From NCBI GenBank assembly GCA_016777225.1, contig JADHRW010000003.1:124001-188000 (forward strand): a stretch of 64,000 nucleotides of DNA, in the 5' to 3' direction. The notes beneath the pieces are model-generated. The model had not been told where the DNA came from and did no database searches. It was given only the letters and a program-made list of their open reading frames with translations. Below are positions 2,841-62,700 of this stretch, piece after piece. Every line of letters begins with the position of its first letter. Position 1 is the first letter of the stretch. The DNA is from Candidatus Thalassarchaeum sp. GTDB lineage: Archaea > Thermoplasmatota > Poseidoniia > Poseidoniales > Thalassarchaeaceae. The translations under genes were made by a program, and so were the position numbers.

Positions 2841-2854
2841 ATTATTACATCCAT

Positions 2855-3175
2855 TCAGATTAGTCTACGTTTTTTATTATCACAGCGCTGACAAGTAGTT
2901 ATTACTGATTTATTCCTTATCCTAACTCTTGAATCAGTTCCAAACCTCATTACAGATTCACATGATCTGCATATAAAAATTCGAGAATTAGATTCATTTT
3001 TAGAGCCATGCCTCTTACTCAGTCTAAGAATATCTCTGGCGGCAACATCTCTAATTCTATGAGAATGAGATTCTGGAGAAAGGATTATCTCAGATAAATC
3101 TGAAATTGCTGATAAAGAACGATTTCTTCGGAGAAATGACTCTTTGGATCTTCTACGACTAGACATACCAACCAC
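2855..3175 (-). CDS. RNase P protein component 4 (Rpp21/Rpr2 family)
   Basis: 106 aa; basic N-terminal helices plus zinc-ribbon cysteines (FICRSCES...TTCQRCDNKKRR). Confidence 0.82.
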   Translation of the reverse strand: MVGMSSRRRSKESFLRRNRSLSAISDLSEIILSPESHSHRIRDVAARDILRLSKRHGSKNESNSRIFICRSCESVMRFGTDSRVRIRNKSVITTCQRCDNKKRRLI

Positions 3176-37597: not shown

Positions 37598-40122
37598 TGG
37601 CCCATAACTGCTCTATGGACTGAATTTTGCACCTCTTTCATTCGATCGTTAGCACCTAATTCTCTGAATACAGACAATGCCTTTTGCAAATAATCCATTC
37701 TTTGGGAACGATCTGTTTCAACTTCACCTAACCGGGCTAAAAGTTCTCCTTTCAAATGTCTGAAATCATTCGCTTCAGCAAGAGCGAGACCTTCGAGATA
37801 ATGTTCCGAGGCCTCTTCTTTTCTTCCTGCATCACTGAGTACCTGACCTAATAACATTTGAACCTCTACTGCACTATGAGGATCAGCCTGTCCTGAAAGT
37901 ATTTCTAATGCACCAGAATAGTGCAACATAGCTAAATCATTATCTTTCATTCGGGCATAGTATCTTCCTAACACTGCTCTAGATCTAGCATGTAAAGTAT
38001 CTTGACCATTGTCTTTAGTTTCATCGTGGGCCAGCATTGCATGATCTCTTGCTCGCTCAAGTTCACCCATCTCTAGAAATGCTGATGCAAGTCGGATTCT
38101 AGAGTCACATAATTGAGGATTATTCTCTGATTCAAGTAATTCTTCAACGTTACTATAAACTTCTAAAGCGTGCCTATTATCTCTACGACGGCGGAAAATA
38201 TAGCCCATGTTATTATATGAACGAGCGGCAGATACTGCATCTCTAGAACTTATTTGAATTTCTAGAGCTTGTCTATGTAATTCTAAAGCATCGTCCATAG
38301 CCCCTCTCTTAACTGCTATATCTGCACGAGATGAAAGTAATCTAGCAAGTTCTTTATTTTGTTTATTCTTACGTGCTGTAGGTATAGCTGCATCATACTC
38401 TTTCTCAGCATCATCCCATCTTCCTTGTATAGAAAGAATATCTCCTCGAAGTTCTCGGACAATTACCCAAGATTTGGAATCAAAACCTTCTCTATCTAAT
38501 GACCTTAAGATACCTAGTAATTCAGTATGTCCAGCTTGAACTAATGAATGGCCCTCATCTGATAATACTTTAGTTAATTCATCTATCTGTTCGGAATTAT
38601 GAAGATGGTGAATAAGTTCTATTCTATCAGTAGCACTATTTTTACGATTCCGATACCAATTAACTGCATTACTATGTAACTCATTACGAAGATTAGGTTC
38701 CATTGATAAAATTAAGAATTCACGAACTAAATCATGCACATCATAATTTTCACTATCCGCTTGCCTCGCTAATCCTTTTTCCACCAATTCATCTAGAAGA
38801 TCAATTGCTGCATCTAATTCACTTAGGGCATCTAATGGAGTAGGTTCCCTAAAGACTGCAATTGCACCAAGAAGTCTCTTCTGAGGACCGGATAATCTGC
38901 TGAAAATTTCTTTTTCAACAAATGCTTCTAGAGTTGCATGGAATGTTCCACCAACACTCCCTCTATTGATTAGTTCTAGAACTAAAGGATGGCCTCGAGA
39001 AAGTGAATAAATATGAAGAAATTGTGATGTATCCATATCAGGCATTGCAGAAAGAATTTGTTTACTAGAATCTTTATCTAAACCATCTAAAGGCATGACT
39101 AAGGTGAGAATCTTACCATCTGAATCTTTCTCTGGAACCACCATTCTAAATGATCGGGAAAACATAACTACACCTACTTGCTCTACAGTAGGAATTTTCA
39201 TACAAATCCCCCTTAAAATAGTGATTAAGGTTTCATCACCGACTTTATGTAAATCATCTATAACAATTAAGCTTGGTGAATTTTTTAGCCCATTAATTAT
39301 CAAATCAACTGCAATATTTGGTTGAGGTATTGATGTGCCAGCAAGATAATCGGATAAATCATTAGAGCCCATAATTGATTGCCATTCAGCAGTAGCCTCG
39401 AGGAAAGATCTAGATCCTTCCCAATCCTGACAACGATGATATAGTAAGTTTCTCTCATGAGTAAATCTTTCAAGTATTTTACCAGCTAAAGCAGTTTTCC
39501 CAATACCCGCAATCCCAGGGACTAGTATGGACGAGGACCGAGATTCGAGTAAGTTAACCATGTCATCAACTTCTTTCTCACGACCAAAGAATTTTCTAGT
39601 CCTAGGAAGGTCATTAAAAGAGGTTACTAACTGTTTTTCGATGTGTTTAGACAAGTCTCTTTCAATTAACTCTGCGGAAAGTAATGATAAGTCTATACTG
39701 CCATTATCATCGATATATCTCAAAATATCTACATGTCTTAATGGTAAGTCAGTCAATTCCAATGCATTAACCAGTGGCACCGTCTCTACAGTACCATCAG
39801 AATTTCTCATTCGGACAGGTTGTGTACTAACTTTATCCCATATTCCATTAGCTACTTTTATTCCATCATCGGTGAGGAAATATGCTTTTCTTTTACGAGA
39901 TACACCAGTTACATGTGCCTGCCTTTCTACAAGTAGGCCTTGTTCCCTCATACCGGATATAGCTCTAGGAACATTAGAACGTGCTATTGCAACGGCATTT
40001 GCTATACCCATTTGGGACAAAGCAAAAGGTACTTCCACTCTACCTGCATGTTCAACATAATCTCTGAGATGTAACAGAATCCTTTCTTGAACTCCTGGTC
40101 GAGGTTGTCCCATACTGCTCAT
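37594..40122 (-). CDS. STAND-type ATPase with N-terminal winged helix and C-terminal TPRs (putative regulator)
   Basis: 842 aa; wHTH-like N-term; KFFGREKEVDDMVNLL...VPGIAGIGKTALAGKI P-loop; LIVIDDLH Walker B; TPR-like helices to the C-term. Confidence 0.87.
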   Translation of the reverse strand: MSSMGQPRPGVQERILLHLRDYVEHAGRVEVPFALSQMGIANAVAIARSNVPRAISGMREQGLLVERQAHVTGVSRKRKAYFLTDDGIKVANGIWDKVSTQPVRMRNSDGTVETVPLVNALELTDLPLRHVDILRYIDDNGSIDLSLLSAELIERDLSKHIEKQLVTSFNDLPRTRKFFGREKEVDDMVNLLESRSSSILVPGIAGIGKTALAGKILERFTHERNLLYHRCQDWEGSRSFLEATAEWQSIMGSNDLSDYLAGTSIPQPNIAVDLIINGLKNSPSLIVIDDLHKVGDETLITILRGICMKIPTVEQVGVVMFSRSFRMVVPEKDSDGKILTLVMPLDGLDKDSSKQILSAMPDMDTSQFLHIYSLSRGHPLVLELINRGSVGGTFHATLEAFVEKEIFSRLSGPQKRLLGAIAVFREPTPLDALSELDAAIDLLDELVEKGLARQADSENYDVHDLVREFLILSMEPNLRNELHSNAVNWYRNRKNSATDRIELIHHLHNSEQIDELTKVLSDEGHSLVQAGHTELLGILRSLDREGFDSKSWVIVRELRGDILSIQGRWDDAEKEYDAAIPTARKNKQNKELARLLSSRADIAVKRGAMDDALELHRQALEIQISSRDAVSAARSYNNMGYIFRRRRDNRHALEVYSNVEELLESENNPQLCDSRIRLASAFLEMGELERARDHAMLAHDETKDNGQDTLHARSRAVLGRYYARMKDNDLAMLHYSGALEILSGQADPHSAVEVQMLLGQVLSDAGRKEEASEHYLEGLALAEANDFRHLKGELLARLGEVETDRSQRMDYLQKALSVFRELGANDRMKEVQNSVHRAVMGH

Positions 40123-40185: not shown

Positions 40186-43100
40186 TCAAGATTTATAGTT
40201 TGGATCTTCAATCCATTCATTAGAATTTTCATCCCAAATCCATCCTTCTGTGGATTCAGAATCATCTGAAGAACCTTCAGAATTTTCTTCATCTTCTATT
40301 TCCACAAAGAAATACACAAATACTCCGCCTAGTAAACCAATAATTACAATGGCAATTATCCCCATTATAGCAAAACTAAGGCCTTCATCAGGTGTACCTA
40401 CTGAAATCTTAACTTCACTAGAATAATCATCACCTACATATCTGAAAACCGGAGTTACTGGTCCGTCACTAAATCTTGATGATGCGATACCCAGTGTCCA
40501 TGTAGAATCATCAGCAACTATAGTATTATTTGCCGGTACTTGATTAATCAATGCAGTAACTGTTTTTCCTGGAAGTCCTACTCCTGAAAAGATGATTGTT
40601 TCACCATCTTCAATTACCGTTACTTCCGGTTCATTTATTTCGAAATTTATTCCAATAACTGTAAATGTCATAGGTATAGCTATTTCTCTGGAACCATGAG
40701 GATCTGTTGCCATGAATACTACATTTTCCAGCGTCCACGAATCCATATCACTATCATAAAAGAACATGGATATTGGGTCATAAACAGCGATACCATCTTG
40801 CCCTACATTAATTACTAATGCATAGTTATCATCGGATGTAGCATCAGTACTTGGATCATCATAAACGGATAAAATCAATTCTTCTCCTAAATCCATATCT
40901 GAGAAAAATTCATTCAAATCGATAATTCCCTTGGTACATCTGTCTTGAGATTGTGAGGATATTTCACAATAGAGAATAATTTCTTGTGACCAGCCATCTG
41001 AATTGAATACTGGCTGATTATTACCTGCATCTGAAGGATTATCAGCAACTACAGTAATTGTAGTCATTTCACTATAATCATAACCGTCATAAGACCTCAC
41101 ATCAATTTCATATTCAAAGTCATGTTGAAGAATTGTTGGGTCCCAATCAGTAGACCAACCACCATTCGCTTCAAATTCTGTAACTGATTGTTGATGGACT
41201 ACGATATCTCCATTATAGATATCCCTAACTGTAATATCAACTCTTGAAACGGAGCCATCATTATCTCTCGATACGCCCTCAATCATATTATCTGCCATTG
41301 AGAGTCTTTGCCCATCTTGTGGAGACAATAAACTAACAAAGGGTGCCGAATTAGAATTATCAATAGTTAAACTCATAGTAACTGCTTCGCATTCATCGAT
41401 AACACTCAGGCAGAAGTCTGAATCTGATGCCCATATTGTGAATGTATATTCTCCGACAGTTCTTGGTTGACCACTGAAATCCCATGTCCATGACCAATCT
41501 GCACCACCTGAAGTAGGAGTTGTCCCTTCAAAATTAGGTCCACTTATGTAAAAATATACTTCGCCTACATCTTGGCTGCAATCATTTGGGCAGCCATATT
41601 GATCGTAAGCAGTCCCCTCGAAAGTAACTGTTCCATCTGACCAAGTAGAACCTGCACTAGGTGAAGAAACTGTCAACAAAGGAGGAACTGCGTTTAGTTT
41701 AATGGTTCTTGAAATTATCGGGCTATAATCGATTCCATCGAAAGAACGGAATTCAAATGTATAGTCGTTTTCCTGATAATCGGACATGTCAAAAGAATAG
41801 TACCAAGAATTGAATGGATGATTGAAACGAGTTACAGTTCCGGCTTCGGCATCACTACTATCTGTTGCGAGACCTGCAGAACTCCATTCACTTGTAAATG
41901 GATCACGAACCTCAATTGAGTGAATGTATCCTTTTTGATCCCATTGTGCTAACTCATCTGTTGCATAAAACCCGGCTAATTGACCATCATGAGCAGAACC
42001 CGTAAAATTAACTATTTTTCTAAATGAATGACCGTCATCTTGTACAACAGATACTGAAGGTCCTGAATTAAATAAATTGATAGTATCTTGATATGTTGCA
42101 TCTTGTACGACGAAATCACTGCGTGCATATCCAAATCCAAAACGATAAGCAGTGTAAAAATATCTAGATAATTCACGAGTACCAGCACTGTAGTCACAAT
42201 CTAAATCATTACCATCAATTGTTAGATCTCCATCATTATCTATACCATCTGAACATGAATCTTCATACTCATCATCAGCAAAACCATCTGGATTGTCCCC
42301 CCCTGAAAGTCCCCTGAAATCAAGGTGCGAGTCAGAAGCTAAAGCAAACCAAGGAGTATATCCATTTTGATCAGTATACAATGAATAAAGGTCATTTCCT
42401 AATGCATCTTCAATAAGTACATTAGTATTTTCAACGGTCATTCCATCCACAAGAGTCTGGAATCTAACCATCTCTGCTCTACGGACTTGAACAGCATATT
42501 GAGTTGGTTGAGACTTAATGAAAATCTTTGAAGTATCTACATTTGATAAATTTGCAAAGGTGAATACAGTAGAATTATTATCCATGCTCATTGCAAGAGG
42601 GAAATTGATTGGAGTTAAATTATCACAATTCGCACACTCTGAGATAGGAGTAGGGATTATCGCACCTTGGAATCCATTTGCAGGCCATGCTTCTTGATCT
42701 GGCCAGTCAAGAATAACAGGGAATTCACCTGGTGGAGCACTAGGAATAAATTCTGACTGAACAGTTACTGATGATTTAGTGATATTATATGCTGACTGAA
42801 TACCATTCCAAGTATTAAGAGAAAAGAATCCGAGTGAACCATATTGTTGAGTATTTGCGAAACCACTATCATAATTACGGATTACAGCGCCAGTGCCTGG
42901 TATACTCCATGTATTTCTCTGGACATCCATTAGACCCCCAATTGCTCTAATTCCATCTGCATCTCCGCCTAGATCAAATTCATTGTCATATAGTGTCACA
43001 CCAGAACGGAATATACTGACTGCAGGGCATGTATAGTCACCATCCCAATACTTGAAACTAGAACAAGTTCCTGGTGAATTAACGCTGACAGTATTATTTG

Positions 43101-44394
43101 TAAAATGAAGTCTTGAAGCAGACGGCGCAGGTCCAGAGGAGGATAATTCACCAACTTGTATTGGAGTCTTTGCCGTATCAATAATTGTATTCCGTTCAGC
43201 TATAACATCAAAACTACCCGTTAACCAAAGTCCATTCCACCCGCCGATAGGACCAATTTCATTATTGTGAATGTAAGCCTTACTAGACTGAACTGTAATT
43301 CCTGAACGTTCACCTACTCCTGAAATATCATTATTATGTAATTCGACATTTGCACCATCATAAACAGTAATTCCAGAACCACTATCAGTTGTAATCTCAT
43401 TATTACCAATTTCAATAGTAAAGTCTACGCCTTGAACTGATTTAATACCATTAATGTCAACTCCATTACAGTTGACATTAATATCTGAATTAGTTAGACT
43501 TCCTGAAGAACTAACTAAAGCAAAACCATAATCTCCAGTATTTACAGTTGCATCATTAATTTCAATGAATGTGCCCTCTGCCCATAGTGTTGGGCGTCCG
43601 CCGTCATTATTTCCACAACCATTATCGGTACCAATGAAAAATGGAGAATTCATCACAAGAGGGGAAATCTGAGTCCCTGAACCATAAATCTGAACTGCAG
43701 AACCACCAACGCCACTTTGGTCATCATTTCCTGCAACATAAGTGCCTCCTTCAAAAATTGGTTGAGCGAGATTTGTAGTTAGGACACTACTGGTGTTTAT
43801 ATTTGTAAATCTCATTTGAGTGAGAGTAGGTGATGCACCATCAATAACCATAGCCCCATAACGCCATCGATTAATAGAATCAATATAGTAAGGAATCCCC
43901 CAAGCATCTTCGAATGTGATATGCCTAAATCCAGTCTCTGATAAATCAATAGAGCTGCGAATTAACATCCCTTCAAAGCAGGATGGGTCTTCTACTTGAA
44001 TTTCTTGAGTTCCTTGCTTCATACCCTTACATTCACCAATTGCACTAGAGTTTGATGGTTCAGTCCACCTAAGTGTGATTTTATTGGCTAAACTGGCATC
44101 ACCAGACGCTCCACAAGAACTTACACCTGCACAAATATTTCCACGAACATCAAGGTATGTCCCATTAGGGAAAATAACTGTAGTGCCCGGTTGAATAATT
44201 AACTTAGCTCCGGAGGCAATTGTTACATCTCCAGTAAGTTGGTGAGTACCAGACCAAGTTTCAGATGTGGTGATAGTTCCAGAGGTTGTTTCATTGTCTG
44301 CCATAACAGGCGTTGCAGGGCCAACTAAAGCAATGAGAATGCTCGAGAACATTAGAAATACAAGGAACGAACTTGTTACACGACGCTTTGACAT
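40186..44394 (-). CDS. Secreted right-handed beta-helix/Ig-like domain protein with C-terminal TM
   Basis: 1402 aa; signal peptide; NNxI-type beta-helix repeats (IEIGNNEITTDSGSGITVYDGANVELHNNDISGVGERSGITV...); C-term TM (FAIMGIIAIVIIGLLGGVFVYFF). Confidence 0.87.
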   Translation of the reverse strand: MSKRRVTSSFLVFLMFSSILIALVGPATPVMADNETTSGTITTSETWSGTHQLTGDVTIASGAKLIIQPGTTVIFPNGTYLDVRGNICAGVSSCGASGDASLANKITLRWTEPSNSSAIGECKGMKQGTQEIQVEDPSCFEGMLIRSSIDLSETGFRHITFEDAWGIPYYIDSINRWRYGAMVIDGASPTLTQMRFTNINTSSVLTTNLAQPIFEGGTYVAGNDDQSGVGGSAVQIYGSGTQISPLVMNSPFFIGTDNGCGNNDGGRPTLWAEGTFIEINDATVNTGDYGFALVSSSGSLTNSDINVNCNGVDINGIKSVQGVDFTIEIGNNEITTDSGSGITVYDGANVELHNNDISGVGERSGITVQSSKAYIHNNEIGPIGGWNGLWLTGSFDVIAERNTIIDTAKTPIQVGELSSSGPAPSASRLHFTNNTVSVNSPGTCSSFKYWDGDYTCPAVSIFRSGVTLYDNEFDLGGDADGIRAIGGLMDVQRNTWSIPGTGAVIRNYDSGFANTQQYGSLGFFSLNTWNGIQSAYNITKSSVTVQSEFIPSAPPGEFPVILDWPDQEAWPANGFQGAIIPTPISECANCDNLTPINFPLAMSMDNNSTVFTFANLSNVDTSKIFIKSQPTQYAVQVRRAEMVRFQTLVDGMTVENTNVLIEDALGNDLYSLYTDQNGYTPWFALASDSHLDFRGLSGGDNPDGFADDEYEDSCSDGIDNDGDLTIDGNDLDCDYSAGTRELSRYFYTAYRFGFGYARSDFVVQDATYQDTINLFNSGPSVSVVQDDGHSFRKIVNFTGSAHDGQLAGFYATDELAQWDQKGYIHSIEVRDPFTSEWSSAGLATDSSDAEAGTVTRFNHPFNSWYYSFDMSDYQENDYTFEFRSFDGIDYSPIISRTIKLNAVPPLLTVSSPSAGSTWSDGTVTFEGTAYDQYGCPNDCSQDVGEVYFYISGPNFEGTTPTSGGADWSWTWDFSGQPRTVGEYTFTIWASDSDFCLSVIDECEAVTMSLTIDNSNSAPFVSLLSPQDGQRLSMADNMIEGVSRDNDGSVSRVDITVRDIYNGDIVVHQQSVTEFEANGGWSTDWDPTILQHDFEYEIDVRSYDGYDYSEMTTITVVADNPSDAGNNQPVFNSDGWSQEIILYCEISSQSQDRCTKGIIDLNEFFSDMDLGEELILSVYDDPSTDATSDDNYALVINVGQDGIAVYDPISMFFYDSDMDSWTLENVVFMATDPHGSREIAIPMTFTVIGINFEINEPEVTVIEDGETIIFSGVGLPGKTVTALINQVPANNTIVADDSTWTLGIASSRFSDGPVTPVFRYVGDDYSSEVKISVGTPDEGLSFAIMGIIAIVIIGLLGGVFVYFFVEIEDEENSEGSSDDSESTEGWIWDENSNEWIEDPNYKS

Positions 44395-45778: not shown

Positions 45779-48700
45779 TCAGAACGGTGCACCAGGACGC
45801 CTTGAACGACCTTTCGTTAGATATAGGAGAATTAAGACCAATCCAAGAACTAAAATCGGTGCCAAAATATCAGTACCCTCGTCATCATTTGTTGAAGGAG
45901 AGCGTACATCGATATTCCAAGCACCTATGAAAATTCCATCTGACTCATGCCAAGAGTCATCATCAATATTATCTTCGCCGTATACGCTTGAATTGATATC
46001 CATTACCAAATAATATTGATCAACAGAAATATCAGATAAATCAAACAAGAAACTGAACTGCCTTTCTGATTCTGCACCTATATCCATAGTTGTGACAGTA
46101 CTAACTGATGTGGGGCTATTACAAGATACGTCATTACAAAGAGTCGCATTAAGTTGGACTTGCTTCGCTTCAACCAAACCTACATTAGATATTACTGCGA
46201 GATATGTAATCATTCCACCAGCCTCAGGTTCACCACCACCTAATGCTTCAACGCCTTCAATCTTCAGGATAGGTTCTGAACTTCGTATTTTAATTTCAAT
46301 TGTTTCATATGAATTTCCAACCTTATCTGTTGCTGTAACATATATTGAGAACTCCTCATTAGATGAGGTTTCAGGTGCCACTACAGTAACACTGTGAGTT
46401 GTACTAACAAATCCACCAAGAGTATGAGAGGTTGGCCCTGTTCTACTCCATCCTTCTGGTAACTCTGAGTCATCAAATTCGAATTCATACTTATCATCGC
46501 CATTTCCAGCATTAGTAAATTCAATTGGTACTATAATTAGCTCACCAGGAGAAACACCGTAGACTTCTGCCATAGGATTTGTTAACTCAAAGCCATGCAA
46601 TTGAGGGACTCTAACTGTTAATTCATGAGTCTCCTGATATCCATCTTGTGTAGAAATTAGAATCGTAATCATATGCCCATCTTCAAAAGCACGAGCGACT
46701 GATTGATTTGCAGGTGTTACTCTAATGTTTAAATTATCAAATGTTTGAACATTGTCAAGACCAACTTCGAACTGAGCTGAAGTACTCCAATTTGAACCAT
46801 TACTGAATTCTAATATCCATTCTGAACTATCAGAACCTGATACGATACCTCCAACTGTGTAAAGATCGTAAGGTTCATGACCTAAATATTCGATTCCAAG
46901 TATGAATTCGACCGGCACAAAACCATCTGAATCGTCAACTACAAGGTCAATATCATCCATAGAGCCAATATAAGACTCATGACCTGATGTTAGATTTAGA
47001 GTTTGAATCGAGATATCATGATTTGAAATACGATTATACAACAAAGTCAAAACTGGAGATTCTTGACCAGAATATACATCAACTCCTTGACCCGCTACAT
47101 ATTCCATGAAGATTCCTCTTTGTTCAATTTCGAAATCACTTGTAAATTGTACATTACCGTTAGGGAGAAGAAGATTTAAAGATCCACTTTCATCAACATC
47201 TTGTAACCATTTCATTCCGAATCCAATATCTATAGTGATATATGAATCTATAATTTGTCCAACATTATTTGATAAACCGTCATAATCTAACCATTCAGTA
47301 TCAACATCTAGTAAACCACCTCTAGTTAGTTCCATATCTAGATTACCGCCTTCCATTACATCTACATCTAATAATCCCATGATTACCAAATCTTGAGTAG
47401 GTACACTAGCACTTACAATCCACAGACCAGGTTCCAACTGAGCAGACCATTCCCCTGACCAACCATCTTCATCAGAATTGATAACAGGATTTACTATATC
47501 TCTAACTAGTCCTTTAGTTGGTATTATTGAGAGGATTATATCTTCTACAGGTATTGAAGATATGCCTAAGTCATAAGAAATATTACCATATACATCCACC
47601 AAACCTGCTGTCAGTTCTAGATCAACATCATTAGGAGTGTCAGATAGTGAAATACTTTGTTGTATACTTTCGAATCCATCATAAGATGTGTTGATTGCCC
47701 AGATTGTATTTGCAGGAACAAATAGCTCCCAATTACCGTTATCACCTGAATCAATGACTATTTCTGATAAATTATCATTTGAGAACACCATGTTGACACC
47801 AGTTATTCCTTCAGCAATATTTGATTCATTATTATCATTAAGATCCCAAAATACAGTACCAGCAAGAGAAACAAAGAAATCTGTAGTTAGATTGTAGTGA
47901 TTTTCATCACCAACTTCCGCAACAATTGGATAATCTTCTACTAACCATCTCTTACCTGAGTCAGTATAGTTTAGAGAAACTATCCAATTACCGGATACTA
48001 AATCAGTAGTTGTAAAACCAGTAGTATTTGTTGCTCCTATGCTGAAAGAACCAAGGCCATCGCTTGATTCAAGTGTTAAACTAATACCCGATAATGGAAC
48101 ACTAGAATATTCTTCAGATAAATTGAATGAAACTTCTGCAAGTTCGCTTGTTGACATCTGCAAATCCGTAGAAACAGTATCGGAATTAACAGAGATTAGT
48201 GTCCTGAGACCTTCTTTAATACCGTTATTAACTATTTCAGTAGTAACTATCCAATCGCCTTGAGCAATGAAATCTACGACACTACCATTAATGTCGGTTG
48301 TTCTTGAGAGTATCCATCCATTCTCAACATTTGTTAGTCTTACAAGTTGTTCAGATAGTACTCCTCCGCTCTCATTAGTGAAAGTCATACTTACGCGCCA
48401 TTCAGGATCAAAACCAATTGAACGATGAATAGTCGATGAATCCATTCCTACTTGTACATCTACGTCTCCTGTCATAATTCTAGTACCAAATTCATCTCCT
48501 TGGCTAGCATCGGATATTTCTACAGAAATACGATAAATTCCTGGTTCAACAGATACATCTGCATGACCAACACCATTCCATTCAGTAGCATTAGTGTTTA
48601 TTTGATAGTCTAAACCACCAATTAGCGACAATAAACTGAATCCATAAGTTACAGATGTACCATTAGTGATATTATTATCTCCAGTATTATCTAAGAAGAA

Positions 48701-51700
48701 ATCCATGGACAATAAAGAATCTTCTGGATAGATTAAAATCTCTACATTATTTTCAGCATTACTTATATTTGTTGTATTTACACCAGATACAAAGTTATCT
48801 GATTCGACAGAAAAATTCCATGTACCTTTTGGAAGGACCATATCAAATGCCCCGCCATCGTTAGACTGAGCCCGCCATGTAACATCATAATCGAGGTTTG
48901 TCGCAATAACAGTAACTGACTCCCAGCCACCAACATCTGTATTGTAGTAATTATCTGCTCTATTGATGCTGATTGCACCATTGACTGTTTGACCAGGTCG
49001 AGCTACCATTGTAATCTCATCCATACCTGTTTCAACTGTAAATTGTGTACCATTAACTAATTTCAAATTAGTACCTAGTTGGGCAATTGCATCAACTACA
49101 GAACCCTCAGGTAGAATTATTGAGAAAGTCCCATTACCTGAAGTTTCAATAGTTGTACTAAAATCATCCCAATAAAAGACAATAGGCACTAACTCTAGAG
49201 TTTTAGATACCTGAGTTTCGTTAGATGGATCGAATATTTCATTTGCATCCTCATTAAAATACAATGTACCAGTAACAACTTGGCTGGTGTAGAATTCATA
49301 TGTTGCTGATAAATCTTCATCACCAATTACTATTTCTTCCCATAGTTGTTCTGTTGAAGATAGAGTATTGCTCAAAATCCACGTACCGGGTAAAAGTTCT
49401 ACATAATACTCATTAGTAATTGAATCAAACTCAGCATTTACTGGTTGACCGGAACCATTCTTCAAATTTAATGTCAAATTCAAATCATTAACTAAAGTGT
49501 CCGAACCATTGACATCTCTTAGTAGTTGGAATGTTAAATCTGACATATTGAATACCGGAGATGGGAAAACAAACTCTGAGGGGTCATTAGCATCAATCAG
49601 ATACTCGACATATATTTCAGAAAAGCCATCATTATCTACATCAATCTCTGCTATATATTCTCCTGGCATGATGGGCCCAAATTCTATTCTAGAACCGGTT
49701 AACTCATCATTGTCCCATGTTAAATCCGGAGAAATTAAGCAAGGAGCATATTTGACATCTTCACAATCATAAATTGCCTCGGATGCATTATGGTCACTGG
49801 TCCTTAATATCACAGAAGACATTATTGGATTACCTGATTGATCAATGAGGTTTCCTGTAATTGAACCGCCATTAATATCAATCTCTGTAATGGGGCCAGC
49901 AGCACCCTGTGTTATTGTATATCCATCACTAATTTCAATTCGTGTATCATCATTGAAAATTACCGCTACATCATAATCACCCGGTATAGCATCAACTATG
50001 TGGAAAGTACCTGGTTGTACCATTACTCCACTAAAGATACCCATTCCTGTAAATGTACCAGTACCATTAATAGTCCCATAATTTATTAATTCGGAATCAG
50101 ATGTGTCAGTAGAGAATACTCCTGAACCAATTAGAGTTGCTTGGACTAGTTTTTGAGTAAAAGATGCAACACCATCTGCAGTGAAACGTCCAGTTGCATT
50201 GGTAATACCATTTAGAAGATATTTGCCATCTGATTGAAGACATAGACTTGAATTTTCAGGCATTGTCTCATTTACGTCGCAGTCAACTAATTCTGATACA
50301 TCATCATTAATTACACCATCGATTATTCCCTTACCTGCAAATTCTCCCTCTCCATTGAGACTATGGTTATTGAATACCGTTTGAGTATAGTTACCTGTAA
50401 AGTCAGTGATTGTAGAAGTAAATTGAGTAATAACAGTACCTTCGCCAGTGAATGTAACTTCACCAGTTCCTTCAAATCTAAGATTTTCTCCTTCTATAGA
50501 ACCATCTGAAGTAGATAGAACATATGGGTCAGCATTAATCACATCCCATGAAGGGGTGAGTTCGACTGTTGCATCATCTAGAGAATCTCCAGCAAACAGT
50601 TCGGAACCAGACCAGACCAATCTACCGGTAGAAGAAGCAGGATCAACATTAATCGAAGCTGAGATGATAGATTCACCATTACTGTGACCATCAGCACCTG
50701 AGATATTTACAATAGTCTCAGATAACCAAGTAGAGCCTGAAACGTTACCTAAAATACCAGTTATTGGATTTAATATTCTCGTATTAATTGATTCGCTTTC
50801 GAAGATATCTCCGAGCGATTGACCAACATTAGTTGTCATAATTTGAGTTCGTGCAGAATCTAAGTCAGATTCTCCATAGAATGCTGTGACACGGATTTTA
50901 CCTGCAGGTACAATGAAACTGTATTCTCCATTTTCATCTGCATCTGTAGTTCCTATTGGAATCCAGTAAGTCCTCTGATCCCTATCAGTAACCTCACCAT
51001 TGATTTCAATCTCATCTCCACTGAATGCATCGCGCTCAATTAATATCTTTGCATTTGGAACTGGTCCTATACCGTCTAATTCAACTGTACCTTCAACAGT
51101 AGCTCCACTGTAGTATTTCATTACCTTAACCTGAGTATTAGCACTGCCTATACCAAGATTTGTACACTCAGAATCTAATTGTTCATCATCTTCATCTAAC
51201 TCACAATCTGGTTGATACCAATTTGATAGAGCCATGTGATTCATCATAGCACCAGGAAGTGGATATGCGTTCTCAAGATATGAACCAGGAGCCCCTGATG
51301 TATAGAAATGAGGGGCTGGTTGCTCTGCATCACCAGGAAGTCCGAGAGTAGAAGTACCATATCCGACATAGATTCGTGCCACCATAGTGTCAAAGAACTC
51401 TGGTTGATGTTGGTAATCAATGTCAACCATTCGAATCATATCATTTGGATCCTCCATAGCACCTGACTGTTGTCGAATAACATCATTCAAGTATTCCGCT
51501 TCATATTGAGCAGAAGTACGAGGAATTATTTGTCCATCATCACCTCTTTGTGTTAGATACACAGAACTAATGTATGTTTCAATATCTAATCCAGATAATC
51601 CAGTAGGTGCATGGAAAATACCTGTAGTTTGACCTTGATGGTAATTGTAATCTTCGTAATATTGTCCTCCAAGAGGATAAAGACGATTATCGACTGCGAA

Positions 51701-54700
51701 ATATCTAATTTCATTATTTCTTGATATTGTTTCACCTAATGGACCCTCATAATTCTGAACATCATATACTAAATTGGTCGATATATCATGATACAAATCA
51801 TTCATACCGCTAGAATCGAATATTTCCATTAATAATGCACGGCTTAATGCAAGTTTAGCGTTAACACGATGCAGCCCAGTTGAAACGTCATCATAATCCT
51901 CGATTAAATCAGGAGTATATCTGTACCCTGCAATATCATAGTATTGGATTACTAATTCTCCTTCCTTATCATGTCCGTCATCATATCTATCTAGTTCAGA
52001 AACAGAATTTCTTGCATCATTGAAGCTCTCTATTGCTAAAGTTTCACTTACTACTTCAGAAATTACTTCACCATCTTCCAGAACTAACCATGTTTTAGTA
52101 GGATCAGGAATTCCATTAGATTGTAGACTGTAGCCAGTTAATATCTCAAACTGTCCGTCTACTGCAACTACAGACATAGATCTGTCTAAAACATCTTCTG
52201 AATCACCCGTTGCAAGGCGCATAATAGTATCAAATTCGTTGTATTGTTCATCAGTCATGTGACCGTCTAGTAGTAATGATTGAAATTCCTCTGTGAATCC
52301 TGCACCATCATTTGATCTTCTATCTCCCTGAGCCAATGTAGCTATGAATAATGAAAGTGTATCTTCTTGACTTGCAGATAATAGCATAGCTCCACTATTT
52401 GGGATACCTGACTGGAAATTGTCAGCAACTGTCGGGTGCGCACCTTGAGCTAGTGCTTGGAAACCATAATCCCACCATGATACAAATGCAGGACGTTCTG
52501 AGAAACTAACATCAGTATCTTGTTCAGAAAGCCATTCATAGGCTATATTCCAAGAACCTGAATTAAAACCAGGACCAAAAGTACCCATATACCATAAATC
52601 ACCATTTGCATCGTAGTTCTCGCTGTTAAGAAGAGAGAATCCAAGAATTTCCTGTCTTAAAACATCAGGAGTAATATCATGAATTGCTTGGTCAACACTT
52701 GAAGCAGATGCTTCACCTCGTGGTATACCTGAATCAATACCATAGGTGATATGTTGAGAACATACTAACATCAGGACAAGAATAATTGCTGGCACACCAG
52801 GGTGTCTCTTTGAAGCAGACCAATTAGCCCAAAAACGAGTTTTGGGAGTAGCAATTCCTGATTTTCTCCATTCTTTAGCAAACCCTGAGAAATTAGCATA
52901 ATTCCACATCATTGCGATTCCAATACCGCCTACTACGGAAATTGCAGGTGTAGCATTGAATATGAAACGGCCTGCTGACCAAGCCATATAAATTGCAATT
53001 AGAACCCATAATCCAAGAAGAATATGACTTTGTTTTTCTTTTCTGGCACCTCTCCAAACTAACAAAACGGCAACAAAAATTGCGATCAAAGAAACAATTG
53101 GTCCATATGATGCGAAAAGAACACCTCGACTTGGAGCCTGGGCTTCACCAATAGTTCCGAAAATCTTATTCTTAGAGAAATAGAATCCACCAGTAAACAG
53201 TACATCCCAACCATCATAGATATTTAATGATTGAAGTGTCCAAAGTACTGCTAAAATACTTCCCATTAAAACAACTGTACTGCCAAGTACCAAAAGCCAT
53301 GGTCTATCACGATATGAAGAAGAAATCCATCCTAATGCGAATGTAAATCCGATAATATAGAACATTGGTTGGAAACCACTTGGATCGAATAATAAGTTTA
53401 GTTCGGGCCAGCAATAGAACGGCAACGGGATTACAAATGCAGTTAGCATCATTTGTAGAGAAGCAGCAGTAATAGGTAGACTGTCTCTTCTTCTGAACAT
53501 ATTGAAGAAGATTTGGAATGCAAATGCAATAAATAAAATTCCAGGGCCATAAACGAAACCTTTCCATCCGAGTGCAACAATTGCAAATGATACACCCGAA
53601 AGTGTAGCATTAGCCATTACCTTAGTATTCTGTGACCACATTTCTCTAATTCCTGCTATTATGTAAAGTGGACTCATACTAGGTGTGTTGAATAATCTCT
53701 GGTTAGTAATTTCATTCATTGCTTTGACCCAGTAATAAAATGCAATCGCCAAGAATAGCATAGCGAATGCATCGTGGTCTGCAAGTCCAAATGTAGAGTG
53801 GCCAATATGACCAGGCATTAAAGCAATTAACCAAGCAGCAACAATACCTGCCATGTTACTGTGTAATTTCCTAGCAAGACCAGCGATTGGAAGTACAATT
53901 AATGCACCGAATATAGCAGGTAAACCTGCAACACTCCACCAAACAGATGTTTCGAGAGACATACCAGTTAACCAAGAAAGAAGAAGTCCTCCTAGAGCTA
54001 ACGACCATGAGAAAAGTGGTGGACGTGGATTTATTGCCACCATAGGATATGCCCTATCTGAATCTATAATCAGATGACTTCTTTCGGCAACAACATAGTC
54101 CACTACACGCTTCATGTACCAAGGATCGGAACCTCCAGACAGATCCCAGAGACCCGTTCCAGCCGCATTCATTGCAGGTAATACGTTCCATCCTGTCCTT
54201 ACTGCTAAAGCAATAAACAGTGCGAAACCGACCATTATCCCATATGAGTGTTGATTCCACCATTTGCGGAATTCTGAATGTTCTCTTCGTGGAGATACAT
54301 CACCAAATTTACCCCTTGCTGCAATCATTATACCACCAACATTCAACCAAAATACTAGTAGGAACCAAGTAAATAGTCCAACATTGTCGTCGGTATTAAG
54401 AGTAGAAACAGGTAATTCATTTCCAATTTCTTGTAAGTGCGCTAATGTGTACATAACCCAATTTAATGCGACTATGGTACCTAATACATGCCATCTCTCT
54501 GAATGACAGAATGAGACGAATATCACAATAATTGTTGCAAACATAGCCCAAACAGAACCAAGGTAATGGTGATTTTCATAGGAAGTAATATCATCAATAG
54601 TTCCTAGCCAAATCAATGGTATCAGATTTACTACAAACACTACGCTAGCTGTGATTATACCAACATTAGGGATAATAGTGGGTATGTCTCTAAACCAAGA

Positions 54701-55312
54701 GCCAGATCCAGGAGATGTAAATCTCCCTCTCATGAATAATGTTAATACAATACCTAGAGATATTGAAGAAGCCCAAGATGCAAAGAACATAGAGCCAATA
54801 GAACTTCTAACTAGATCAATCAAAATATCAGGATTACCGTCGACCAACCAAGATGTATCATCCAGAGAATATCTAGTAGCACTAGATATTGCGAAATGGA
54901 ATCCGATAACTATTGAGAGTAATATCGAAGATTCTTCATTCCTATTTGATTGAGATAAAAGTAAAGAAGATACAGACATCAACGCAAAAGTAAAACCTTC
55001 GAGAGGGCTGATAGGAGTGAATTGAATAGTTAAGAAAGAAAATACTATCAAAAATATTGATACTAAAGATGTTCTAGTCTTGTTGACTATTGAGGATTCA
55101 CCAGATGTGTTTAAAATCATACCAAGAAACGCGGCAAAAGCTGCGATAACTGGTAAGATCAGGATGTCTGCATATCCGTCAATCTCCATTCCACCGTTCG
55201 CGACATAGTCAGTTCCTAGGAAGAGCACCATCAAAGTTGCTAGCAGCGTAGGAACTGGGAGTAAATTCTGATTAGAAAATACACCTACAGTCGCTTCATT
55301 ATCATCGTTCAT
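45779..55312 (-). CDS. aglB: Giant STT3/AglB-type oligosaccharyltransferase with N-terminal TM extension and about 2200-aa extracellular C-terminal region
   Basis: 3177 aa; GGSDPWYMKRVVDYV, LADHDAFAMLF and WWDYG (nt 52463-52477, residues 946-950) motifs; many TM helices; carboxypeptidase-regulatory-like repeats; C-term TM. Confidence 0.9.
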   Translation of the reverse strand: MNDDNEATVGVFSNQNLLPVPTLLATLMVLFLGTDYVANGGMEIDGYADILILPVIAAFAAFLGMILNTSGESSIVNKTRTSLVSIFLIVFSFLTIQFTPISPLEGFTFALMSVSSLLLSQSNRNEESSILLSIVIGFHFAISSATRYSLDDTSWLVDGNPDILIDLVRSSIGSMFFASWASSISLGIVLTLFMRGRFTSPGSGSWFRDIPTIIPNVGIITASVVFVVNLIPLIWLGTIDDITSYENHHYLGSVWAMFATIIVIFVSFCHSERWHVLGTIVALNWVMYTLAHLQEIGNELPVSTLNTDDNVGLFTWFLLVFWLNVGGIMIAARGKFGDVSPRREHSEFRKWWNQHSYGIMVGFALFIALAVRTGWNVLPAMNAAGTGLWDLSGGSDPWYMKRVVDYVVAERSHLIIDSDRAYPMVAINPRPPLFSWSLALGGLLLSWLTGMSLETSVWWSVAGLPAIFGALIVLPIAGLARKLHSNMAGIVAAWLIALMPGHIGHSTFGLADHDAFAMLFLAIAFYYWVKAMNEITNQRLFNTPSMSPLYIIAGIREMWSQNTKVMANATLSGVSFAIVALGWKGFVYGPGILFIAFAFQIFFNMFRRRDSLPITAASLQMMLTAFVIPLPFYCWPELNLLFDPSGFQPMFYIIGFTFALGWISSSYRDRPWLLVLGSTVVLMGSILAVLWTLQSLNIYDGWDVLFTGGFYFSKNKIFGTIGEAQAPSRGVLFASYGPIVSLIAIFVAVLLVWRGARKEKQSHILLGLWVLIAIYMAWSAGRFIFNATPAISVVGGIGIAMMWNYANFSGFAKEWRKSGIATPKTRFWANWSASKRHPGVPAIILVLMLVCSQHITYGIDSGIPRGEASASSVDQAIHDITPDVLRQEILGFSLLNSENYDANGDLWYMGTFGPGFNSGSWNIAYEWLSEQDTDVSFSERPAFVSWWDYGFQALAQGAHPTVADNFQSGIPNSGAMLLSASQEDTLSLFIATLAQGDRRSNDGAGFTEEFQSLLLDGHMTDEQYNEFDTIMRLATGDSEDVLDRSMSVVAVDGQFEILTGYSLQSNGIPDPTKTWLVLEDGEVISEVVSETLAIESFNDARNSVSELDRYDDGHDKEGELVIQYYDIAGYRYTPDLIEDYDDVSTGLHRVNAKLALSRALLMEIFDSSGMNDLYHDISTNLVYDVQNYEGPLGETISRNNEIRYFAVDNRLYPLGGQYYEDYNYHQGQTTGIFHAPTGLSGLDIETYISSVYLTQRGDDGQIIPRTSAQYEAEYLNDVIRQQSGAMEDPNDMIRMVDIDYQHQPEFFDTMVARIYVGYGTSTLGLPGDAEQPAPHFYTSGAPGSYLENAYPLPGAMMNHMALSNWYQPDCELDEDDEQLDSECTNLGIGSANTQVKVMKYYSGATVEGTVELDGIGPVPNAKILIERDAFSGDEIEINGEVTDRDQRTYWIPIGTTDADENGEYSFIVPAGKIRVTAFYGESDLDSARTQIMTTNVGQSLGDIFESESINTRILNPITGILGNVSGSTWLSETIVNISGADGHSNGESIISASINVDPASSTGRLVWSGSELFAGDSLDDATVELTPSWDVINADPYVLSTSDGSIEGENLRFEGTGEVTFTGEGTVITQFTSTITDFTGNYTQTVFNNHSLNGEGEFAGKGIIDGVINDDVSELVDCDVNETMPENSSLCLQSDGKYLLNGITNATGRFTADGVASFTQKLVQATLIGSGVFSTDTSDSELINYGTINGTGTFTGMGIFSGVMVQPGTFHIVDAIPGDYDVAVIFNDDTRIEISDGYTITQGAAGPITEIDINGGSITGNLIDQSGNPIMSSVILRTSDHNASEAIYDCEDVKYAPCLISPDLTWDNDELTGSRIEFGPIMPGEYIAEIDVDNDGFSEIYVEYLIDANDPSEFVFPSPVFNMSDLTFQLLRDVNGSDTLVNDLNLTLNLKNGSGQPVNAEFDSITNEYYVELLPGTWILSNTLSSTEQLWEEIVIGDEDLSATYEFYTSQVVTGTLYFNEDANEIFDPSNETQVSKTLELVPIVFYWDDFSTTIETSGNGTFSIILPEGSVVDAIAQLGTNLKLVNGTQFTVETGMDEITMVARPGQTVNGAISINRADNYYNTDVGGWESVTVIATNLDYDVTWRAQSNDGGAFDMVLPKGTWNFSVESDNFVSGVNTTNISNAENNVEILIYPEDSLLSMDFFLDNTGDNNITNGTSVTYGFSLLSLIGGLDYQINTNATEWNGVGHADVSVEPGIYRISVEISDASQGDEFGTRIMTGDVDVQVGMDSSTIHRSIGFDPEWRVSMTFTNESGGVLSEQLVRLTNVENGWILSRTTDINGSVVDFIAQGDWIVTTEIVNNGIKEGLRTLISVNSDTVSTDLQMSTSELAEVSFNLSEEYSSVPLSGISLTLESSDGLGSFSIGATNTTGFTTTDLVSGNWIVSLNYTDSGKRWLVEDYPIVAEVGDENHYNLTTDFFVSLAGTVFWDLNDNNESNIAEGITGVNMVFSNDNLSEIVIDSGDNGNWELFVPANTIWAINTSYDGFESIQQSISLSDTPNDVDLELTAGLVDVYGNISYDLGISSIPVEDIILSIIPTKGLVRDIVNPVINSDEDGWSGEWSAQLEPGLWIVSASVPTQDLVIMGLLDVDVMEGGNLDMELTRGGLLDVDTEWLDYDGLSNNVGQIIDSYITIDIGFGMKWLQDVDESGSLNLLLPNGNVQFTSDFEIEQRGIFMEYVAGQGVDVYSGQESPVLTLLYNRISNHDISIQTLNLTSGHESYIGSMDDIDLVVDDSDGFVPVEFILGIEYLGHEPYDLYTVGGIVSGSDSSEWILEFSNGSNWSTSAQFEVGLDNVQTFDNLNIRVTPANQSVARAFEDGHMITILISTQDGYQETHELTVRVPQLHGFELTNPMAEVYGVSPGELIIVPIEFTNAGNGDDKYEFEFDDSELPEGWSRTGPTSHTLGGFVSTTHSVTVVAPETSSNEEFSIYVTATDKVGNSYETIEIKIRSSEPILKIEGVEALGGGEPEAGGMITYLAVISNVGLVEAKQVQLNATLCNDVSCNSPTSVSTVTTMDIGAESERQFSFLFDLSDISVDQYYLVMDINSSVYGEDNIDDDSWHESDGIFIGAWNIDVRSPSTNDDEGTDILAPILVLGLVLILLYLTKGRSRRPGAPF

Positions 55313-55431: not shown

Positions 55432-56700
55432 TCAAAGCCCCCTATGGCCTATATCATTACGATAGTGAGAACCCTCTAATTCCACACTTCTAATTACTTC
55501 ATATGCAGCATCAATTGCGGTGATTAAATTTGGTGCTATTCCCGTTACTGCGAGCACTCTACCACCATTTGATAGTAATTCCCCAGAGTCAGATATTGAA
55601 GTACCAGCATGATGAACAAAAGCATATATCTCACCTTCATCTATATTAGTATCAGTGCCAAAAATCTTTCTCCCAGTTATTGATTTCTCCGGATAGCCTT
55701 CTGATGCAAGAACTACTGTGGCAGAAGAGCGAGAATATGTAGTGAAATTATAGTTTGCAATCCTTCCTTTAGCACAAGCCATTAGCAGTTCGCCAAGGTC
55801 GCTAGAAATCAAAGGTAATGTCACCTGCGTTTCAGGATCTCCGAAACGGACATTATACTCTACAACACTGGGAGCCCCGCTTGAATTAATCATCAGTCCA
55901 ACGTATAAGCATCCACGATATGGAACATCTTGATTACGAAGGAAATGATGCATTGGTTCTATAATTTCTGATATTGTTCGTTGTTCTACTGCGGGAGTAT
56001 ATATCGGAGCAGGAGCATAAGCACCCATACCTCCTGTATTGGGTCCTCTGTCCCCATCTAACAAACGCTTGTGATCTTGACTGGCTGGTAGACAGACATA
56101 TCCTGACTCATCCATTACAACTAGAACTGATGCTTCTTCACCTTGTAAGAATTCTTCTAGAAGGACGAAATCATCAGTCTCAATTCCTTCTTTCAAAGCG
56201 CAATATGCATCGAGACGAATATCAGTAACAATTACGCCCTTCCCACCGGCCAAAACATCTCTTTTGACCACCCATGGAGGAGAAAAAGTGTCCAATGCTT
56301 CATCTATTCTTTCGATATTTTCTATTACTATTAATCCAGCCGTAGGGATTTTTAGAGACTTCATGATTTCTTTAGCATATAGTTTAGAACCTTCTAATTT
56401 GGCACCAATAGAATTAGGGCCAAAACAAGCAATTCCTTGATCATTTAATCTATCAGATAATCCATTAACTAAAGGACCTTCAGGGCCTACAACAACTAAA
56501 TCTATATCCAGATTTTTAGCAAGTAATACGATACCATTGATGTCATTTACAGAAACATTATGGTTAGTGCCTAAAATCGCTGTACCTGCATTTCCTGGTG
56601 AGGCATGAACACTACTTACTGAAACACTTTTCGCTAGACTCCGTACAAGAGCATGTTCTCTGCCTCCACTCCCGACAACCAATACAGCGAGACCACTCAT
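55432..56700 (-). CDS. purD: Phosphoribosylamine--glycine ligase
   Basis: VLVVGSGGREHALVRSL, GPEGPLVNGL, GDRGPNTGGMGAYAP, YNVRFGDPETQVTLPL. Confidence 0.97.
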   Translation of the reverse strand: MSGLAVLVVGSGGREHALVRSLAKSVSVSSVHASPGNAGTAILGTNHNVSVNDINGIVLLAKNLDIDLVVVGPEGPLVNGLSDRLNDQGIACFGPNSIGAKLEGSKLYAKEIMKSLKIPTAGLIVIENIERIDEALDTFSPPWVVKRDVLAGGKGVIVTDIRLDAYCALKEGIETDDFVLLEEFLQGEEASVLVVMDESGYVCLPASQDHKRLLDGDRGPNTGGMGAYAPAPIYTPAVEQRTISEIIEPMHHFLRNQDVPYRGCLYVGLMINSSGAPSVVEYNVRFGDPETQVTLPLISSDLGELLMACAKGRIANYNFTTYSRSSATVVLASEGYPEKSITGRKIFGTDTNIDEGEIYAFVHHAGTSISDSGELLSNGGRVLAVTGIAPNLITAIDAAYEVIRSVELEGSHYRNDIGHRGL

Positions 56701-59783: not shown

Positions 59784-62700
59784 TCACTCAAACTGATTGC
59801 ATAGTTCGCCTTGACTAGGGAAACTCAAAGGATCTTTAGGATTGGTATTCCATTTATTTTCACATTTATTGAAGGCCCCATCACCATCTGAATCAATATT
59901 AGCATCAGCTGCATCATATGGGTCGAAATTAAAGAAATATTCCCATCCTGCCCACATTCCATCACCATCTTGGTCTTGGTGATAAACTTCAGAACCATCA
60001 TTCCATTGGTCACCATCAGTATCATTTAGGATAGGGCTAGTACCATTCTGCATTTCTTCATAGTTAGTATAATTTTCAAGATCATCATAGAACTTATTAC
60101 CATATTCAGTCATTGGATCTATGTGACATTCAGCATTTTGTTGATCATTCCATCCTGGACAATAACGGTATAGTAAGTTAGTTCTATTCAGGCCATCACT
60201 ATCAAAATCTTCTTGTCCGTCGTCAATCCCATCTAAATCTGAATCTACCATTGAAGGATCCATTGGTCCTCTAGCTCCTAGAGCATTCAGAGAATTATTG
60301 TCAACTATCCCCAAAGAAATAGCTTCACCAGAGTAAAATACTTCCCAACCATCTGGTAATTTATCACCATCTGTGTCATCATTAACTGGGTTAGTATTCC
60401 ATCTATCTGGTGCTTCAAGTTGATTCATTAGAGTATCATTATCGATATCATATATGTTGTCATTCAAAGAACCGTAAGCAGGATCTAAAGCCCATCTTCC
60501 ATTATTAGGTATAACAAAACCGGAGAGATTCATCTCATGAAGGAAATATTTAGGATCCATAACTCCATCGCCATCTCTATCACCAGAAGTAGAAAAACCT
60601 TGAACATAGTTTGTCCAAACCCATCCACCGGGACCTAATCCACACTCGAACATATTATCGCAACCAGGAGGTAACCAATTTGTACTACTAATCCAAAGAC
60701 TATGGCTGTTAGTGTTTTGTTGAACAGAAAATACTTGCATTTCCCATCCATCCGGTTGCCCATCTCCATCTGTATCATTGATTAGAGGATTCGTTGCTGC
60801 CTGCCAAGGTCTTGGGATGAATAACACTTCGCCACCATCATCTAATCCATCACCATCACTATCAGCATTATTCCCATGAGTAATGTATTGATCTTGACCA
60901 TCAACAACCTCTTCACCATCTGCTAAACCATCATTATCTGTATCGAATGATGATGCATTAGTGAAGTACTGTTCGGTTACATTCCAATAGAAACCATCCA
61001 TAGCTTCTGTGAAATCTTCTAAACCATCACTATCGGTATCTCTATCTGTGGCGTTAGTGAAGGTTTCGTAATATTCTACTGAGTCGGAAAGGCCGTCACT
61101 ATCAGTATCAAATACACCGGGGTCGCTTCTAACAAGGACATCTTTCACTCCATTATCAACAACTCTAATCGTCCAACCAATTACTTCTATACCATCAATC
61201 AAACCATCGTTATCAGTATCAGCAATCAATGGATTTGTGGACCTACCGTCAGTAATTCCATCGCCATCTCTATCTCGGGCATTATATTCATCTAAGTTCG
61301 TAAAACGTTCATCTTGTTCAACAACTATAGCTAAATCTTGTGTCCTAGTCAAAACTTCATCACCTAAATTAACATTGATTTCATAAACCCAACCTTCTGT
61401 CAAAGTTTTTACTGGAATATTTACATATACGCTATTCTGGACAGTTCTAACCCAAAGTATAGTTTTGTTAACAGGAACATATTCGCCTAATTCAACAGAA
61501 ATTAGGTGTACAGTACTCACTCCTACAAGTTCATCAAATCTAACACCACCATCACCATCAGCGTCATAACCATCAAAATCAGGATCTTCTAGTGCGTTTG
61601 CGCCATCATCATTAGGATGAATTCCACTCAAATGTTCCCAACCATCAGGCATTCCATCATTGTCAGTATCTGCAAGTAATGGGCTAGTGAAATTTTCAGG
61701 ACCCCAAGTGTAAGCAACTTCATATTCTTCTACATTGTTAAGGCCATCTTCATCTCTATCACCATAAGCATCAGTGGCATTAGCTGGATTCAAGAATCGT
61801 TTTGAATCTTGATCTAAAGCATAGCAATACTCGTATCCATCGGGCATACCATCTCCATCAGAATCCCAATCACCTGGGCCATTTAGACGACCGTCTCCAT
61901 CCATATCTTCTTCGAACCAAGTTATATCACCCGGACCAGACATATACTCATGATAGGGTGCTTTGAGTGTTAATGTTCCAAATTGAGTTACTCCACAATG
62001 AACTGATAAATCTATATTTCCAAAAGCAATCTCATACCTATCTGCGATTAAATCACCATCGCTATCTTCTGCTAAAGGATTTGTATCGTATCTTTCCTCA
62101 ACGAAGTTTCTCAGACTATCTGGTTCAGGTTGTTCTAAATCTAATAGTGCATCACAAGAATGACCAAACTGATTACCCATCTGATCAAAAACCGTAGCTC
62201 CTATATCCGCTTTAATTTGAGCTTTAATATCAGGAGTAAGTAAGTAACAATCCCAGTTACCATCTAGTGGATCAAGAAGTTTAATTGAACCTTGAGGAGT
62301 TTCTACGGTGTAAGTATAAAGTGATTCCCAGCGATCATTTAAGCCATCGCCATCTGAATCTTGAAGATTAGGATTTGTACCCAAATTAGCTTCATCGACA
62401 TTGATTAGTCCATCTCTATCTGGGTCACCGAATGGGCCATTATCCGGATTAGGGAACGTCTCATTTAGTTCTGTATTATCCTCATTCTGATCAGGTTGTG
62501 TAGTTTGAGGATCAGGAGCAGCTGCTTCTCCACTATCTAAAGGATCAAGCCCATTATCAATTTCCCAGCCATCTTCTAAACCATCATTATCAGTGTCTGA
62601 AAGTCTCCAATCAGTTCCATATAGGGTTTGTTCCATCCTATCCGGGAGACCGTCACCATCAGTATCTAACCCTGCAATATGGCCTTCGGAATCTTGAGTT

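Follow-up and report, generated by a model that had tools for sequence, protein, structure and literature searches.

The only AglB-type oligosaccharyltransferase (OST) of a Thalassarchaeaceae (Marine Group IIb) archaeon is a single chain of 3177 residues, in which a catalytic core is continued by a long extracellular arm that ends in a second membrane anchor. Its gene lies in the 64,000-nucleotide stretch of DNA analysed here (the window). At about 3,200 residues, giant OSTs of this kind are three to four times the usual OST size. The preliminary description, an OST joined to an enormous extracellular region with a membrane anchor, was borne out: the fusion is encoded in one frame, occurs order-wide and carries a C-terminal transmembrane (TM) helix. 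Our preferred reading, to which we give slightly less than even weight, is that of an OST made as one chain, whose doubly anchored arm would be self-glycosylated and would scaffold translocating substrates.

Identity of the protein

That the window protein is an STT3/AglB (GT66) oligosaccharyltransferase is near certain. It is the sole PF02516 (STT3) match in the 1.48-Mb genome, with a score of 54.2 bits at a gathering cut-off of 24.5. It contains SDPWY (residues 395-399), DHD (512-514), TIGE (720-723) and WWDYG (946-950), which we take, from knowledge of the family, to be its DxD, TIxE and WWDYG motifs; SDPWY, DHD and WWDYG had rightly been given as a normal STT3 signature. Across 46 aligned Poseidoniales proteins, D396, D512/H513/D514, T720, E723 and W946-G950 are invariant, and I721 is the only motif residue to vary (V in 6 of 46). 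The best PDB match of the core, by sequence and by fold, is the AglB of A. fulgidus. An AF2 model of residues 1-1180, built on a 42-sequence alignment, has a mean pLDDT of 74 with low confidence around the catalytic loops; its best 18 Foldseek matches in the PDB are all OSTs, AglB first. PF22627 (AglB_core-like) reaches 15.7 in the window protein (cut-off 27) and E <= 0.1 in 14 of the 15 aligned members. TIGR04154 aligns to residues 360-984 with 152.5 bits; as 450 bits are required, membership of this archaeosortase-associated OST subfamily was ruled out.

Within Poseidoniales, PF02516 is found in 268 of 291 genomes, nearly always once per genome, and most of the listed frames measure about 3100-3330 aa. 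The comparison of AglB lengths that had been proposed for the order thus makes the long form the rule. A scan of genome contigs yielded 80 loci from other assemblies, all colinear with the giant OST; the named records among them belong to Thalassarchaeaceae, Poseidoniaceae and other Poseidoniales. The window's own family, f1, is read as Thalassarchaeaceae (MGIIb) and family f2 as Poseidoniaceae. Since independent assemblies from two families repeatedly show frames of about 3.2 kaa, misassembly is rejected, and the probability of an assembly artefact or of an annotation fusion of two genes is negligible. A few genomes do show short frames on long contigs (1603 aa in G002; 1264 aa in G270, as L163), but both are frameshifts, and the rest of the tail is still encoded in other frames. 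No missed stop or frameshift lies at the core-tail junction, and in no relative examined are core and tail split between two genes.

Domain architecture

The features of the protein and of its neighbours are listed in Table 1. An anatomy of core plus tail had been recognised correctly, and so had the beta-rich nature of the tail, but the 345-aa N-terminal multi-TM extension and the Poseidoniales-only Gly-rich domain within the tail had been overlooked.

Table 1. Position of the giant OST, its domains and its neighbouring genes in the window
Feature	Position	Strand	Basis and remarks
Giant OST ORF	45779-55312	(-)	ATG start, 3177 aa, no internal stop
N-terminal membrane extension, residues 1-345	54278..55312	(-)	Hydropathy, AF2; Poseidoniales-only
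STT3/AglB membrane core and catalytic globular domain, residues 346-1390	51143..54277	(-)	PF02516, TIGR04154 sub-threshold, AglB sequence and fold
P1/AglB_L1-like beta-sandwich, residues 1391-1490	50843..51142	(-)	End of the OST-like part common to compact relatives
First tail domain, residues 1491-1591	50540..50842	(-)	AF2: helices and strands; partial match to f3 tail
Gly-rich long-stranded beta domain, residues 1592-1772	49997..50539	(-)	Alignment, AF2; Poseidoniales-only
CarboxypepD_reg/prealbumin-like beta-sandwich array, roughly a dozen, residues 1773-2850	46763..49996	(-)	Pfam, AF2 to 2345, internal repeats; sequon-rich
NEW3/NPCBM_assoc-like and CARDB-like domains, residues 2851-3145	45878..46762	(-)	NF041740 at 2892-3011; Pfam in relatives
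C-terminal TM helix and basic tail, residues 3146-3177	45782..45877	(-)	Hydropathy, alignment
S8 subtilase, N-terminal hydrophobic segment	44472..45704	(-)	PF00082, E 1.5e-40; adjoins the OST, co-directional
1402-aa beta-helix/Big_7 protein	40186..44394	(-)	Pfam; next after the subtilase
purD-like gene, upstream of the OST	55432..56700	(-)	Sequence recognised by eye; synteny

The extension is predicted to comprise about ten TM helices (AF2 helices at 14-37, 44-66, 74-98, 103-121, 125-147, 161-194, 216-238, 253-271, 275-295 and 310-332), and the charges of its loops fit an N-terminus that is probably cytosolic. It has no PDB match and no credible Pfam match, and none of 20 other Thermoplasmatota genomes has it, be it within the OST or as a gene of its own. 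The OSTs L088 and L089 (families f13 and f20) have an N-terminal multi-TM extension of their own; an extension shared with Poseidoniales was ruled out, because the two show no profile similarity.

The alignment with compact Thermoplasmatota OSTs (about 1020-1290 aa) covers residues 353-1587, and the P1-like domain occupies about 1400-1485, which leaves an extra tail of about 1690 aa. The 2200-residue tail of the preliminary description was therefore overstated, as the OST-like part reaches about residue 1490. Residues 1391-1490 show a mean identity of 67% within f1 and include a weak AglB_L1 match (residues 1428-1469, E 0.036). On the basis of this one match, an arm that may have grown from duplicated P1 domains is only a lead.

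In the first tail domain, the sequon at N1536 is nearly invariant, with N in 39 of the 46 Poseidoniales proteins; N2217, further along the tail, is likewise nearly invariant in the order. The Gly-rich domain next to it has strands of up to 42 residues (AF2, block pLDDT about 80-93) and two invariant cysteines, Cys1678 and Cys1691 (codons 50279-50281 and 50240-50242), in a tail that is otherwise Cys-poor, which suggests an extracellular disulfide. Neither Pfam nor the PDB offers a credible match for this domain, which the genome encodes only once. It is unmatched in the tails of the groups labelled mid and next, has a weak partial match in family f3 and, elsewhere, gives one marginal match only (E 0.007, in G320); as far as tested, it would be specific to Poseidoniales.

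The AF2 model of residues 1185-2345 (pLDDT 81) shows beta-sandwiches one after another, in a row that the Gly-rich domain interrupts at 1592-1772. Among 15 aligned relatives, Pfam finds CarboxypepD_reg in all 15, CARDB in four and NPCBM_assoc in three, in agreement with the carboxypeptidase-regulatory/CARDB-like tail described at the outset; SdrD_B and NOMO1-like_9th are also among the Pfam matches of the arms of aligned members. The region 2851-3145 is homologous to the tail ends of other members of the phylum. The second membrane anchor that had been proposed is present as a TM helix at about 3147-3165, followed by basic residues. The terminal Phe3177 (45782-45784) is invariant in the Poseidoniales alignments although the C-terminus varies.

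Distribution and origin of the arm

The arm is real, but the view of one odd gene proved too narrow, because such arms occur widely in the phylum. OST lengths across Thermoplasmatota fall at 2080-2740 aa in many families and at 920-1430 aa in others, with frames of about 2300-2375 aa in family f3, which belongs to the same class as Poseidoniales. In tail-only profile-profile alignments, the Poseidoniales tail matches the groups mid (3e-77), f3 (4e-41), next (1e-40) and small (6e-37); the alignment is colinear through the C-terminal TM helix for mid, f3 and next, and covers most of the tail for small. A TM helix with basic residues closes all complete long forms and no compact form. This homology with the tails of 2080-2740-aa OSTs across Thermoplasmatota makes the tail an old feature of the phylum. 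Since other families of the phylum rely on compact OSTs (920-1430 aa), the arm is dispensable for catalysis in general. Some Thermoplasmatota families have two PF02516 proteins (G339, G323, G331 and others).

On a tree of the core, three length classes require 3 changes (mean of shuffled assignments, 19.3). The rooting is arbitrary, so that one gain followed by later loss is compatible with the tree, not proven by it. Poseidoniales OSTs form one clade (support 100/100). The stem of this clade, with 1.7 changes per site, is far longer than neighbouring branches, as if the OST core had changed rapidly when the extra modules appeared. Long forms are not reported in the retrieved passages of open-licence PMC papers on OST/AglB in Poseidoniales, Marine Group II and Thermoplasmata.

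Sequons

The arms of 19 Poseidoniales proteins hold 812 N-x-S/T sequons in the forward direction against 362 in the reversed sequences, while the catalytic globular domain of the same 19 holds 22 against 72. In the window protein, residues 901-1400 contain no sequon and the rest of the tail contains 38. Within Poseidoniales, the enrichment is specific to the arm when compared with the neighbouring 1402-aa beta-helix protein, whose orthologues hold 233 sequons forward and 220 reversed. For the other large proteins of the window, sequon z-scores lie between -1.8 and +2.5; the tail itself is rich, but a setting among many sequon-rich secreted proteins, as previously described, was not found, and these scores rule out a window-wide cluster. 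The OST tails of L088 and L089 hold about 100 sequons (z 16-17).

An enrichment unique to the OST arm throughout the phylum was ruled out, as other secreted arrays are enriched as well: non-OST CarboxypepD_reg arrays of other Thermoplasmatota hold 717 sequons forward against 399 reversed. Because these control arrays share it, enrichment alone marks an extracellular glycoprotein and not a special acceptor role. Judged by these counts, the arm resembles an extracellular glycoprotein selected for glycosylation, though not uniquely so within the phylum. CarboxypepD_reg arrays, common in the secreted proteins of other Thermoplasmatota, occur in large numbers in several genomes of the phylum; L230 and L231 (G315:C7 and G327:C112) are non-OST proteins of 2.7-2.9 kaa with many such domains.

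Neighbouring genes and expression

The order purD - OST - S8 subtilase - beta-helix protein is kept in nearly all Poseidoniales loci checked and was not seen at the loci checked outside Poseidoniales. The S8 subtilase and the beta-helix protein are possible functional partners of the OST, and the purD-like gene is not thought to belong to the OST system. At 37594-40122, the window also encodes an 842-aa protein with HTH, AAA/NB-ARC and TPR repeats that resembles a STAND-type regulator, and at 30879-36599 and 59784-62831 two large proteins, of 1906 and 1015 aa, that contain TSP3-type repeats. An oligosaccharyltransferase, which may not be the giant-OST gene, has more transcripts when the Thalassarchaeaceae genus O1 is active (PMC9723583).

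Resemblance of the arm to NOMO

Against the PDB, NOMO2 is the only match of note for the profile of the Poseidoniales tail (E 4e-6), the C-terminal half of which has no significant PDB match by profile. For a profile of five other OST tails, NOMO2 stands at 6e-24 and the runner-up, a collagen adhesin, at 4e-6. Used as a single query, one OST of the mid group recovers nothing but OST cores from the PDB; the match to NOMO thus depends on a profile. The NOMO_5th model matches 13 of 21 OST tails at E <= 0.001, a count of tails that are related to each other and thus not independent, and reaches 46.7 in the relative L090 (cut-off 27). It is absent from the best 25 families listed for 22 non-OST CarboxypepD_reg control arrays, taken from related genomes, and can therefore match at most two of them; one control array, L210, matches a NOMO domain at 1.2e-9. 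No NOMO Pfam model matched the window protein itself, and among the best 50 Foldseek matches of the tail model NOMO is absent, the matches being generic prealbumin/CNA-B arrays (streptococcal proteases, pilins). Membership of the NOMO family is accordingly not claimed. The arm does share the NOMO-type architecture of a prealbumin-like array with a C-terminal TM anchor, and by this analogy NOMO may be the closest thing that the arm works like, not the family to which it belongs. Passages of PMC11186639 describe NOMO as having prealbumin-like domains and as a BOS subunit of the multipass translocon.

Possible functions of the arm

In the mechanism that we propose, the membrane core, judging from its family, would move a lipid-linked glycan onto N-x-S/T sequons outside the cell. 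The chain would continue as about 15 prealbumin-like and NEW3/CARDB beta-sandwiches (a number estimated from length, AF2 and internal repeats), after which the C-terminal helix would enter the membrane and leave the basic end in the cytosol, as hydropathy and charge suggest. With this helix re-entering the membrane, both ends of the arm would be fixed, and the arm would form an arch next to the active site. The sequon statistics point to the arm as a selected glycan acceptor, and as the catalytic part is made first, the arm would probably be glycosylated by its own enzyme while emerging. It would then act as a permanent luminal-type scaffold, a covalently attached counterpart of NOMO or of the accessory subunits of OST, which would hold the OST at the translocon, space it from the cell-surface layer and guide emerging chains past the active site. 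The ten-helix extension, most likely though speculatively, would pack against the OST core or SecY and dock the OST in Poseidoniales. Three roles had been guessed for the tail beforehand. A scaffold gains from the double anchor and the NOMO-like array, and an acceptor-presenting arm from the sequon enrichment specific to the tail; an S-layer-like component, unlike these two, has no direct support.

The last of these roles leads to a different explanation, in which the arm serves as a structural glycoprotein of the surface-coat or S-layer-like kind, fused by chance to the OST and perhaps clipped by the S8 subtilase, to be released or displayed. The resemblance of the sequon-rich beta-sandwich array to other surface proteins of the phylum speaks for it, as does the conservation of the subtilase and the beta-helix protein beside the OST in Poseidoniales. 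Yet the TM helix and basic tail of all complete long forms argue for anchoring, a coat would need a copy number unlikely for an OST, and the subtilase neighbour is missing in other tail-bearing lineages; we consider a coat unlikely. An equally doubtful alternative is a substrate-binding or chaperone module that binds unfolded translocated chains and presents their sequons, thereby raising processivity or widening the acceptor range. It would suit an arm that continues the catalytic domain directly and covalently, that is colinear and conserved across the phylum, and that adjoins a strongly conserved region by the active-site domain (residues 1200-1500, 62-68% within f1). The outer tail domains, however, are only about 32-45% identical within f1 and evolve faster than a binding surface should, and no known peptide-binding motif was identified in the arm.

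The double anchoring and the extended array would also fit an arm that has no glycosylation-specific role and is a mechanical spacer or tether keeping the surface layer off the membrane, with the OST as its membrane base. A parallel exists in NOMO, reported to regulate the spacing of ER sheets in passages of PMC11186639 that cite earlier work. Against this, no sign of an interaction with a surface layer was found, and none of the open-licence papers naming both Poseidoniales and the S-layer bears, by its title, on the matter. We regard the spacer as quite improbable and retain the self-glycosylated scaffold as our preferred reading.

Implications

Poseidoniales are among the most abundant archaea of the ocean, and the giant OST gives a concrete starting point for studying how a glycosylated surface is built by uncultured archaea of the sea. 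Archaeal OSTs are usually pictured as compact single-subunit enzymes, as opposed to the multi-subunit OST of eukaryotes. In much of Thermoplasmatota, OSTs are two to four times longer and bear an anchored glycoprotein arm that, by sequence profile, comes closest to a translocon factor of eukaryotes; these giant OSTs represent a testable alternative route to OST complexity. A bolder proposal, which we put forward as a long shot, is that Thermoplasmatota OSTs carry a covalent NOMO-like translocon rod, self-glycosylated and looping back into the membrane, and that this rod would be an archaeal forerunner, or a parallel invention, of the coupling that eukaryotes have between OST, NOMO-type rods and translocon, to which Poseidoniales would have added a docking module of ten helices and a novel Gly-rich beta domain.

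Comparison with known systems

The other giant OSTs of Thermoplasmatota (2080-2740 aa) are homologous to the Poseidoniales form in core, arm and C-terminal anchor but are without its N-terminal extension and Gly-rich domain. A. fulgidus AglB (3waj/5gmy/7e9s) has the same membrane core, DxD, TIxE and WWDYG motifs and overall OST fold, whereas its 875-residue PDB chain is without the long arm, the ten-helix extension, the Gly-rich domain and the TM helix of the arm. The TIGR04154 OSTs, such as that of the haloarchaeon Halocatena salina (about 912 aa), are homologous over residues 360-984 (profile, tblastn) but have less than one third of the giant OST's length. The eukaryotic OST complex (STT3, ribophorins, OST48 and others) has the STT3 core in common with the giant OST and also places membrane-anchored accessory beta domains on the extracytoplasmic side, close to the active site; there, these parts are separate subunits, whereas the giant OST is a single chain, and no sequence link to these subunits emerged from the searches made. 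NOMO1/2, finally, present an array of prealbumin/transthyretin-like domains outside the membrane, as the arm does, but as a separate protein that is not fused to an OST, while the arm of the giant OST is covalently joined to its enzyme.
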